Assembly (NCBI RefSeq): GCF_040361275.1
Contig: NZ_APNH01000003.1
Coordinates: forward strand, 620,001 to 684,000
DNA: 64,000 bases
Reading direction: 5' to 3'
DNA from: Salinisphaera sp. T31B1
Lineage (GTDB): Bacteria > Pseudomonadota > Gammaproteobacteria > Nevskiales > Salinisphaeraceae
Shown here: piece after piece, positions 23,975-62,600 of the stretch
Numbering within the stretch: position 1 is the first letter of the stretch
Layout of the letters: every line of letters begins with the position of its first letter
The notes under the pieces: generated by a model
Told to the model about the DNA's origin: nothing
Databases searched by the model: none
What the model saw: only the letters and a program-made list of their open reading frames with translations
Made by a program: the position numbers and the translations under genes

Positions 23975-25339
23975 TCACTGCGCCGTGCGGCGCGACAAAC
24001 CGGCATTCTGCTGCGGGTCCCGGTCGTCGATATCGAATTCGTTGGGCACGCGAACCACCAGCGTGCCGTCCGGATCGGAGCGGATCGTGCCGGCAGCGCT
24101 CTGGGCGCGATAATGATACAGATGAAACGCCAGCGGCTCGTCGCTGTCGCTGAGTAGTTGCAGATGCGCGTTGACCAGCAGCGTCGAGAAAAAGCGCGCG
24201 TCCCCGGATTGCAGCCAGATATAGCTATCCGCGGCGTGCGGCGGGTCGATATAACCGGCGTCGCTTGTATCGCTGGCGAATTTCAGCGTGAGGCCGGCAT
24301 CGCTCAAACGGGCGTCCACAATCTTGTCGACGATGACCTGCGGGGGCGGGAACATGGTCTCAGGGTCCATGACGAGACGGTTGCCGTCGAGCGCGACGCC
24401 CGGGCGGTCGAAAGGCGTGACCTTGGACAACGGCAGATGCAGTGCGGCAAGCAGCGGCTTGACGGGCAGGCCCAACTGCTCAACGTGATCGGGCTCGTAG
24501 ACGAGCTTGTTGTCGGGCGTGACCGTAATCGGGCCTTCCAGCGTCGTGGGTATTCCGCCGACCGGAGGAATGAAGCCAAACAACCGGGCGCCGACCGTGA
24601 CCTTGAGCCGGCCGTCGCTGGTCCGGTTTTCCACCGACGACAGAGAGCGCGGTTCGTAGGTGAGCACATAGTGGTTGAACAGGGCATCGAGATCCTCGGG
24701 CCGGATCAGCACTTCGCCCGACAGGATATGGATGCTGTACTGGTCCGGGTCGTCGAAATTGACCGGCGCGCCAGCCTCCTTCGGCTCCAGCGCGGCTTTC
24801 AGGTGACGTATGTGATAACCCACGCCGTCGGCGAGATAGAAATCGACGTTGCGTGCCTCCAGCGCGACATGCTTTACCCCCGAGTCGCGGGCATTCGGCG
24901 CCGCCATGCCCTGCTTGAAGCCGGCCGGCACCTGGCGGTTGTTCCATCGTGCGGCGAGCCGGTCGTATTGCTGCTGCTGGCGGCGGACCAGAGACGGCAC
25001 GATGGTATCGGACGGGTCGAGGGTATTGCCCGGGCCGCGCTGCGATTGGTGTCCGCTCTGTTCGCCGGCGCCCGTACGGCCGACCTGGCTCTGACTGCCC
25101 GGAGCGGCGTCGTCGCCCGAGCCGGTATCTGTCTCGGCCTGTTGCTCGTCGGAATCCTGTTCGTCGGATCGTCCGGGGGCCGGTGCCGGCCTGCCATGAC
25201 TGCCCGGGCCTAGCGTTTCACGCATCTGGCCTTGTGCCAGGGCGACCGGGACGATGCCGGGTCCGGCCAGGCCGAGCAGCAGCCCGGCGAGAGCCAGCGT
25301 TTGCAGGCCGCGCGCTAACACCGGTCGATTAAGACGCAT
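23975..25339 (-). CDS. Exported protein of unknown function, paralogue A of an overlapping pair
   Basis: A 454-residue protein with an N-terminal signal peptide (hydrophobic core LALAGLLLGLAG, likely cleavage after VALA-QG near residue 36). A low-complexity Gln/Ser/Gly/Asp-rich linker runs to about 120, and the C-terminal domain is beta-rich. From about 150 to 425 it aligns with the upstream gene product: shared DDP, HxLxGEV, ALFNxYxxxY, DGRLKV, LVYEPDxV, LDGNRLVMD, PPPQ, DAGLTLKF and a closing YNYRAQ/YHYRAQ. No enzyme motif was recognised. ATG 25339 gives a clean signal peptide; the gene overlaps the upstream partner by 11 bp, so the two are co-translated. Confidence 0.8.
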   Translation of the reverse strand: MRLNRPVLARGLQTLALAGLLLGLAGPGIVPVALAQGQMRETLGPGSHGRPAPAPGRSDEQDSDEQQAETDTGSGDDAAPGSQSQVGRTGAGEQSGHQSQRGPGNTLDPSDTIVPSLVRRQQQQYDRLAARWNNRQVPAGFKQGMAAPNARDSGVKHVALEARNVDFYLADGVGYHIRHLKAALEPKEAGAPVNFDDPDQYSIHILSGEVLIRPEDLDALFNHYVLTYEPRSLSSVENRTSDGRLKVTVGARLFGFIPPVGGIPTTLEGPITVTPDNKLVYEPDHVEQLGLPVKPLLAALHLPLSKVTPFDRPGVALDGNRLVMDPETMFPPPQVIVDKIVDARLSDAGLTLKFASDTSDAGYIDPPHAADSYIWLQSGDARFFSTLLVNAHLQLLSDSDEPLAFHLYHYRAQSAAGTIRSDPDGTLVVRVPNEFDIDDRDPQQNAGLSRRTAQ

Positions 25340-26432
25340 CGCCGTTCTCCGGTCGTGCCGGCGGAAGATAGTCGGCCGGCTGGTATGGGCCGAGATAGGC
25401 GACCAATTCACCGGCAGGTGTGGCATCGAAGAATCCGTTCAGGATTTGCGCACGATAGTTGTAAAGCGACGTGTCGAGCTTGCCCCCGTCGCCCGCTACG
25501 AGTTGCATGCGTACATCGGTGACCAGCGCCCGGAACGTCTTGACGTCGCCGCCCTGGAGCATCACGTAGCTGTCGGCCTTGACGATGGGTTCGGGGAACG
25601 CGGGATTGAAATCGCTCGTGAAGCTCAGGTGAACGCCCGCGTCGTCGATCTTCAGGTCGGAAACATGTACATCCTGGGTTGGAGGCGGCAATGCGTGGTT
25701 GAGGTCCAGTACCACGTTGTTGCCTTCGAGCTGGGCGCCTTCGGTATCGATCTGGAGCAGTTTGGATACCTGCAGGTTGATCGCATCCAGCAGCCCCTTG
25801 GCCTCGATCTTGGCGACCTTGATCTGGTCGGGTTCGTAAACGAACAGATGATGGGCCACCAACCGTACCCCGCCTTCCATGTGAAACGGCAGCCAGAGCC
25901 CGGGAATCTTGGCTGTCTCGCCGTCGACCACGAGCCGACCGTCACGGGTGCTGACTTCCAGGTTGCGCATCTGGGTATCGGGATAATCGGTCAGGTACTG
26001 GTTGAACAGCGCCGTCAATGCCGATGCCGGCATGATCACGTCGCCGTTGAGTGGGTGGAACACGAACGAGGTGGGGTCATCGAGGGTGACCGGGCGCGGA
26101 GGGTCGGTCGGTTCGAGCAGCGCTGAGAGCTGTGCAGTATCGAAACCGATATCGCCGGCGATGCGGAAGAAGGTATTGCGTATGAACAGCCCCACGGCAG
26201 GCCGTCCGCTGTTGCGCAGCCCGGGTTCGCCGTTCCGGGGATTGAACGCCCCGGCGTACTTTTCGTGGGCGGCGCGCAACTCATCCAGGGCGGCAAGCTG
26301 GGTCTTCTTGGCCGTGATCATCGCCGGGGGCGAGGTGTCCAGGCCCTGGGCCATGCGCATGCCGACCAGTGCGACAGCGATGAGCAGCACTACGGCCAGT
26401 CCGCTCCAGAGCGATATCTTCTTCACCGCCAT
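25329..26432 (-). CDS. Membrane-anchored protein of unknown function, paralogue B of an overlapping pair
   Basis: A 367-residue protein with a single N-terminal hydrophobic segment (LAVVLLIAVALVGM, about 10-24) after a basic start, so probably anchored in the inner membrane with the bulk in the periplasm. It is homologous to the downstream gene product over about 270 residues (FHPLNGDVIMP, ALFNQYLTDY, DGRLVVDG, FVYEPDQIK, LEGNNVVLD, IDDAGVHLSF, YNYRAQ). The regular pattern of short amphipathic strands suggests a lipid-binding or scaffold-like beta fold, but this is inference. No known domain was identified. It is first in a two-gene operon. Confidence 0.8.
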   Translation of the reverse strand: MAVKKISLWSGLAVVLLIAVALVGMRMAQGLDTSPPAMITAKKTQLAALDELRAAHEKYAGAFNPRNGEPGLRNSGRPAVGLFIRNTFFRIAGDIGFDTAQLSALLEPTDPPRPVTLDDPTSFVFHPLNGDVIMPASALTALFNQYLTDYPDTQMRNLEVSTRDGRLVVDGETAKIPGLWLPFHMEGGVRLVAHHLFVYEPDQIKVAKIEAKGLLDAINLQVSKLLQIDTEGAQLEGNNVVLDLNHALPPPTQDVHVSDLKIDDAGVHLSFTSDFNPAFPEPIVKADSYVMLQGGDVKTFRALVTDVRMQLVAGDGGKLDTSLYNYRAQILNGFFDATPAGELVAYLGPYQPADYLPPARPENGDAS

Positions 26433-26528
26433 CGACGCTCTCCACCACGTCTTTGTTTTGCCCCATCCTCACGCAGTCGCGCGATAAAGACAATAATTCT
26501 TTTCAGTTTGGCTGGCCGTACCGACGGT

Positions 26529-58296: not shown

Positions 58297-58371
58297 TGGG
58301 GCGTAGCCAAGCGGTAAGGCATCGGGTTTTGATCCCGTGTACCGCAGGTTCGAATCCTGCCGCCCCAGCCA
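58297..58371 (+). tRNA. tRNA-Gln (UUG)
   Basis: A 75-base cloverleaf with encoded CCA: acceptor TGGGGCG pairs with CGCCCCA, D-arm GCCAAGCGGTAAGGC, anticodon TTG at 58329-58331 and T-arm GCAGGTTCGAATCCTGC. The outermost pair of the anticodon stem is a T-T mismatch. It sits between lolB and prs, as in pseudomonads. Confidence 0.95.
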
Positions 58372-62524: not shown

Positions 62525-62600
62525 GGCTATGTAGCTCAGGGGTTAGAGCATCGCATTCATAATGCGAGAGTCGGTGGTTCAAATCCACCCATAGCCACCA
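62525..62600 (+). tRNA. tRNA-Met (CAU), elongator type; likely island attachment site
   Basis: A 76-base cloverleaf with encoded CCA: acceptor GGCTATG pairs with CATAGCC, anticodon stem TCGCA/TGCGA and anticodon CAT at 62558-62560. It has a 7-bp paired acceptor stem, unlike initiator tRNA. Its 3' end faces the integrase gene, so the 3' half is the probable attB/attL crossover region. Confidence 0.95.

Follow-up and report, generated by a model that had tools for sequence, protein, structure and literature searches.

A paralogous gene pair of Salinisphaera and its relatives as a candidate two-part, TULIP-like unit of the bacterial envelope

Introduction

How lipids are moved across the periplasm is still an open question, and bacterial TULIP-like proteins have received little study. 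LmeA (PF11209, DUF2993) is a mycobacterial periplasmic phospholipid-binding protein; in the accessible parts of the pertinent reports it is described as a phospholipid-binding TULIP (PMC7643837) with both a TULIP and a Chorein-N domain (PMC7643837, PMC6791001). The DUF4403 proteins are portrayed as mostly predicted lipoproteins in the accessible part of PMC6791001, where bacterial TULIPs are also said to possess extra strands on either side of the core, which can form a BPI-like dimer interface (Levine, PMC6791001). YceB, a lipoprotein of E. coli, has the TULIP fold as well.

The locus considered here belongs to Salinisphaera sp. T31B1 and lies within a stretch of 64,000 nucleotides (contig NZ_APNH01000003.1, positions 620,001 to 684,000), which was analysed as a whole and is referred to as the window. 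A preliminary description had recognised in it two overlapping genes, termed A and B below, for paralogous exported proteins. The analysis presented here indicates that A and B genuinely constitute a two-part unit of the envelope, so far uncharacterised, which has been kept together over long divergence. A search of the open-access literature found no description of the pair, and the accessible part of the LmcA structure paper (PMC8972800) offers no lead on it.

The gene pair in the window

The ORFs and the sequence bear out the two adjacent, overlapping reading frames at the place and with the overlap previously assigned to them (Table 1). In both cases a GGAG motif is found 7 bases ahead of the ATG, at window positions 25347-25350 for B and 26440-26443 for A. 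BLASTP aligns A with B at 34% identity and 51% positives (E=2e-49), which upholds the paralogy of the two products; the alignment, however, extends over 320 residues, and not over about 270 as had been stated. The conserved blocks listed earlier as common to both proteins are present. This is the sole A-B pair in the genome of Salinisphaera sp. T31B1, although the profile search of that genome also lists a third, short piece within the B frame. Besides two tRNA genes on the plus strand (Gln, 58297-58371; Met, 62525-62600), the Rfam scan of the window revealed no family at threshold.

Table 1. Features of the A-B locus in window coordinates
Feature	Position	Strand	Basis
Protein A (P0002), 367 aa, upstream pair member	25329..26432	-	ORF and translation, 28-row alignment
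Protein B (P0001), 454 aa, downstream pair member	23975..25339	-	ORF and translation
Overlap of A stop and B start, 11 bp	25329..25339	-	sequence
Predicted N-terminal membrane anchor of A, residues 7-28	26349..26414	-	sequence; lipobox and clear cleavage site absent
Putative LmeA-like (TULIP-like) core of A, residues 118-271	25620..26081	-	Pfam PF11209 match and secondary structure of the model
C-terminal beta module of A, residues 285-347 (SYxxxxGGD, LYxYRxQ)	25392..25580	-	conserved in A/B alignments; past the LmeA match
Predicted cleavable signal of B, residues 1-35	25235..25339	-	ALA/Q-type site, by eye
Disordered linker of B, residues 36-110	25010..25234	-	low pLDDT
Part of B homologous to the LmeA-like core of A, residues 196-354	24278..24754	-	alignments
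C-terminal beta module of B, residues 371-433 (SYIWxQSGD, LYxYRAQxAAG)	24041..24229	-	conserved in alignments

Distribution and genomic context

The expectation that relatives would retain the pair was borne out in part, since it was detected in 10 of 14 Salinisphaera genomes, the window's included, and is missing from the other four; the unit is therefore dispensable in the genus. None of the 27 relatives searched outside Salinisphaera has the pair, and all ten carriers among the 85 genomes sampled at the level of the order are Salinisphaera. In Cycloclasticus 10 of 18 genomes harbour it, some of the remaining eight being incomplete. When genome contigs were searched, P0002 alone as a query gave no match, and the B alignment retrieved 19 loci: nine at 52-62% identity (seven titled Salinisphaera, one 'Endozoicomonas sp. 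G2_2' and one 'Lysobacterales bacterium') and ten at 34-40% identity, six of them titled Cycloclasticus. The record titled Endozoicomonas sp. G2_2 (NZ_JAGHQU010000004.1, L071) looks misnamed and seems to come from Salinisphaera.

Broader samples extended this range, all counts, including those given above, being lower bounds that depend on the profile, the sampling and the first look. With the 28-row profile and at most five candidates scored per genome, 4 of 369 genomes of the class sample were positive, adding one new genus. A wider profile applied to the phylum sample recovered 6 of 398 genomes, including three of family f165 (genus g293) and two of f193, families which we take to be those of Pseudomonas and Burkholderiaceae, respectively. 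Within f193, matches occur in at least 102 of 398 genomes and at least four of 25 genera. The protein family has no curated model in the copies of Pfam and NCBIfam that were searched. The f165 and f193 matches rule out the idea that the family is confined to marine hydrocarbon degraders. No match was obtained among viral contigs or, at the protein level, among plasmids; a 15-kb piece around a fused locus of f193 (see below) matches two plasmids, over 50-78 bases only.

The genes surrounding the pair differ from lineage to lineage. As judged by matches to genes of the window, the order in Salinisphaera is nth-FAH-gph-A-B-pckA, with gph not found in all genomes; the Cycloclasticus pairs are presumably flanked by an MFS-like gene and a nucleotidase-like gene, and we assume the neighbours in f165 to be DUF2868/DUF3482-like genes. 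A match to pckA was found in three of the four pair-less Salinisphaera genomes and not in the fourth. These three keep the order of the flanks, represented by gph and pckA in two of them and by FAH and pckA in the third. About 1.2 kb lies between gph and pckA in two pair-less genomes (L106, 5763-6941; L107, 5696-6859); this stretch contains an open reading frame that codes for 249 or 297 aa, and tblastn detected nothing similar to A or B in it.

Pairing, fusion and common history

Wherever a locus was read with both genes on a single contig, A immediately precedes B in the same orientation. With the start codons chosen here, on which all overlap and gap figures rest, the genes overlap by 4-17 bp in six of the eight other Salinisphaera loci of this kind (pair 1) and are 4 and 7 bp apart in the remaining two; in the ninth other genome A and B are situated at contig ends. 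TTG is the apparent start of three pair-1 A genes (L008:1489, L010:1489, L011:1468). Four Salinisphaera genomes possess, elsewhere, a second and strongly diverged A-B pair (L066, L067, L069 and L070, at G008:C29, G013:C25, G001:C18 and G009:C43), whose products measure 336-352 aa (A) and 318-350 aa (B) and whose genes overlap by 4-16 bp in all four cases. The ten Cycloclasticus loci show gaps of 25-33 bp, and all three f165 loci an overlap of 4 bp.

A different arrangement is met in f193, where A followed by B forms one open frame in all 32 loci and thus in every one of the 31 genomes inspected. Of these genomes, mostly the best-scoring of at least 102, 30 belong to genus g343 and one to g342. 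One of the fused chains, that of L119 (6836-9043, minus strand), measures 736 aa. For four f193 genomes (G908, G961, G1016 and G1077) the matches listed comprise four or five domains rather than two, pointing to an additional copy. When proteins encoded separately elsewhere are found fused, this is classically taken as evidence for joint function.

In a tree of 48 proteins a single branch divides 24 A from 24 B sequences with support of 100/98. The same division, 22 A against 22 B, is obtained in a second tree that includes the fusion halves and the f165 proteins (100/98; present in 200 of 200 bootstrap trees), in which the midpoint root, used for drawing only, falls on the A/B branch; Treekit flags long branches, above all those of the second Salinisphaera pair. 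The simplest account would be one duplication before the lineages parted, after which the unit was probably inherited or transferred jointly. That A and B diverged only once and have stayed associated ever since is good evidence that they act jointly. The single split, the constant A-then-B order and the fusion elsewhere thus support the joint action proposed for the two proteins in the preliminary description, and we hold this to be considerably surer than lipid binding.

Export and anchoring

Signals, anchors and lipoboxes were called by eye, without a predictor. In the AlphaFold2 model of A (mean pLDDT 84.5; 78.3 for B) residues 3-28 form an uncleaved-looking N-terminal helix, in agreement with the membrane anchoring proposed for this protein. 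The signal and disordered linker proposed for B are likewise corroborated, by the ALA/Q-type site and by pLDDT values below 50 at residues 1-11, 28-87 and 91-102. The linker is long in five of the ten Salinisphaera pair-1 B proteins (431-454 aa) and short or absent in the other five (379-398 aa).

Judged in the same way, all ten pair-1 A proteins of Salinisphaera have a TM-like N-terminal segment, and the pair-2 A proteins carry lipobox-like cysteines (4/4). The A proteins of Cycloclasticus (10/10) and f165 (3/3) have cleavable-looking signals, and in both lineages this is the only export element seen on A and B alike. The different anchoring ascribed to the two partners consequently holds for some lineages, such as Salinisphaera, but not for Cycloclasticus and f165; the anchor, where one is seen, is on A. 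A lipobox-like motif is present in all 31 f193 fusions (CAGC in 21, CTGC in seven, and MSAC, GAGC and CSGC in one each), although with the commonest start it lies at residue 51, which is far in for a signal peptide. The export-type N-termini, as read by eye, thus support the view that A and B are an exported paralogous pair.

Domain architecture and relation to known folds

The model of A places beta modules on either side of the LmeA-like stretch. The latter runs through a strand, a helix (residues 136-147) and a four-stranded meander (155-206) to short helices and, at its end, a hairpin (257-271). Several of the most strongly conserved positions belong to the C-terminal beta module (SYxxxxGGD, LYxYRxQ) and others to the core (PPP). 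An internal repeat relating the N-terminal to the C-terminal beta module was considered and rejected as too weak (hhalign P=0.0014, probability 18%, 53 columns). The B proteins of Cycloclasticus have a C-terminal extension with a cysteine motif of the type C-x-N-R-A-G-F-x-x-C; in six aligned sequences (L039:1429-2721, L046, L047, L048, L049 and L050) it occurs twice in four and once in L047 (the first copy) and L048 (the last copy).

The Pfam scan of A returned PF11209 at residues 118-271 (profile positions 83-216, E=7.1e-4, 20.1 bits), that of B returned no match and NCBIfam yielded nothing for either protein. The earlier statement that no known family could be recognised therefore stands for NCBIfam and, in Pfam, for B, but has to be qualified for A by this sub-threshold match to LmeA. 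The curated cut-off of 27.3 bits is reached by none of the proteins scanned, the best scores being 20.1 (P0002) and 20.5 bits (L147), and in the seven proteins with coordinates the match is partial, covering positions 83-215/216 of the 217-position profile. PF11209 also appears below threshold in 20 of the 31 f193 fusions (best E=5.3e-4). In L119 and five of eight re-scanned fusions the match is located at residues 149-299/300 (profile 83-215/216), on residues homologous to those of P0002, G130 and G266 of the latter corresponding to G161 and G295 of L119; the A domain of L119 and P0002 share 28% identity. Since most of the fusions are near-copies of one another, all but one of the others being 86-95% identical to the first, they count as a single lineage for the LmeA evidence; the same weak match in P0002 and the fusions thus means that two lineages agree.

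In other scans PF11209 was found in one of 28 members (P0002 itself) and one of six (L119), and in none of ten sequences (six natural, four consensus). The B proteins scanned alone were all negative, as was a whole-genome search of five Salinisphaera and Cycloclasticus genomes, the window's included, and a search of four actinobacterial plasmids found no LmeA sequence. Nevertheless, no family other than LmeA comes up repeatedly at homologous positions of two lineages in the Pfam scans, which produced no row for DUF4403 and, for the pair and fusion proteins, none for PF07273 (DUF1439).

The best VIA-align neighbour of the B model is YceB (3l6i; Z 5.7, rmsd 4.3, 130 aligned residues, target of 172 residues), matched to residues 164-355; one must bear in mind the tool's warning that Z values of this size may mean a common arrangement only. 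For the A model VtrC (5kew) ranks best with Z 4.9, and TULIPs follow lower in the list (LBP, Z 3.9; SPLUNC1, Z 3.8; BPIFA1), as does BPI (Z 3.7) in the list for B. Foldseek gave no PDB match at E<=0.001 for either model. At the sequence level, the best PDB matches had E of 0.44 and 0.71, and one search returned 0 rows; PHROGs contributed a single Rz-like spanin row (E=0.55) for P0002. Profile-profile comparison with YceB (hhalign), based on seven members of its family from eight loci, the off-centre L092 being left out, gave probabilities of 0.1-0.4, against 0.3-4.7 for the reversed control, which exceeded the real score in two of three comparisons. The evidence leans towards the lipid-binding character proposed in the preliminary description, given the sub-threshold LmeA match in two lineages and YceB as the structure nearest to B, weak as these matches are. 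None of the results points to the bridge across the periplasm that was suggested there as well.

Proposed mechanism and alternative explanations

We slightly favour a reading in which A and B each supply one half of a periplasmic TULIP-like lipid-binding unit of the LmeA/YceB kind; among the mechanisms considered, lipid binding through a TULIP-like core has the best support, with chances that seem a little better than even. A TULIP-like core in A and B is supported but not proven; heterodimer geometry, lipid binding and lipid transfer are what we infer. One old duplication would have given rise to A and B, and the coupled two-gene unit, or one fused chain, would allow a one-to-one A-B assembly. 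By analogy with BPI-type TULIPs, the beta modules beside the cores may serve as the A-B interface, which is placed there because the modules sit where bacterial TULIPs, according to the accessible part of PMC6791001, have extra dimer-interface strands. The product would be an elongated A-B body with two hydrophobic pockets. Membrane tethering via A is the best reading in some lineages; in Salinisphaera A would fasten the unit to the inner membrane, with the linker-borne B as the mobile or distal half. The unit may bind a lipid, or some other hydrophobic molecule, at one membrane and then pass it on.

Such an assembly could also be a heteromeric envelope complex other than a lipid carrier, e.g. 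a scaffold of structural or chaperone-like type that binds protein or polysaccharide through its beta-rich domains. The pairing, the single split and the fusion need no lipid, and the fold matches are both weak and heterogeneous, calycin-like and glycosidase rows ranking near the top; however, the recurrence of LmeA, and of no other family, in two lineages and the TULIP entries in both structural lists render a scaffold unlikely. We give very little credence to a ligand-sensing heterodimer resembling VtrA/VtrC or ToxR/ToxS, in which a calycin-like pair would bind an amphipathic molecule and signal via the anchor of A. VtrC (5kew) and ToxS (8u2f) are indeed among the best VIA-align rows for A (Z 4.9 and 4.5) and B (Z 5.0 and 4.2), but the match spans some 80-100 residues with the general shape of a beta-barrel, neither Cycloclasticus, f165 nor the fusions show a TM link, and A, with about six residues ahead of its anchor, has no room for a DNA-binding domain.

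The pair might, finally, take part in the uptake or handling of hydrophobic growth substrates such as hydrocarbons, and not in membrane lipid traffic. Salinisphaera and Cycloclasticus, the first two genera in which it was found, include marine hydrocarbon degraders. Nevertheless, its presence in at least 102 of 398 f193 genomes and in three f165 genomes, the failure to find it in 8 of 18 Cycloclasticus genomes (some incomplete) and neighbours that look like housekeeping genes, as far as their presumed names go, make this role quite improbable.

The TULIP-like reading of A and B as a lipid-binding unit can be carried further, tentatively and with chances somewhat short of even, to a new periplasmic lipid-transfer system: an obligate A-B TULIP-like heterodimer, tethered by A and in one large lineage fused to a single lipoprotein, which would shuttle one specific lipid from one membrane to the other, without recourse to Mla, Lpt or AsmA-like proteins, in Salinisphaera, Cycloclasticus and probably Pseudomonas and Burkholderiaceae. 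If this is true, bacteria possess a heterodimeric TULIP that occurs in two versions, encoded by a two-gene unit or built as a BPI-like single chain. As apparently the same unit occurs in two natural forms, separate and fused, the pairing hypothesis is easy to test.

Comparison with known systems

The likeness to LmeA lies in the alignment of core residues 118-271 of A with profile positions 83-216, in a helix and beta region ahead of the core, and in what appears to be export with an N-terminal membrane anchor, as judged by eye in all ten Salinisphaera pair-1 A proteins (other lineages differ). In contrast to LmeA, A and B carry a C-terminal beta module of about 60-75 residues past the match and are always found as an A-B pair or fusion, and all scores stay below the gathering threshold. 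YceB provides the nearest structure to the B model; it is, however, a short single domain and shows no sequence relation to A or B by Pfam or hhalign. With the DUF4403 and BPI-type pseudodimers the f193 fusions (31/31) share the presence of two homologous domains per chain, whereas A and B are also commonly two chains, and their domains have a C-terminal module specific to the family.
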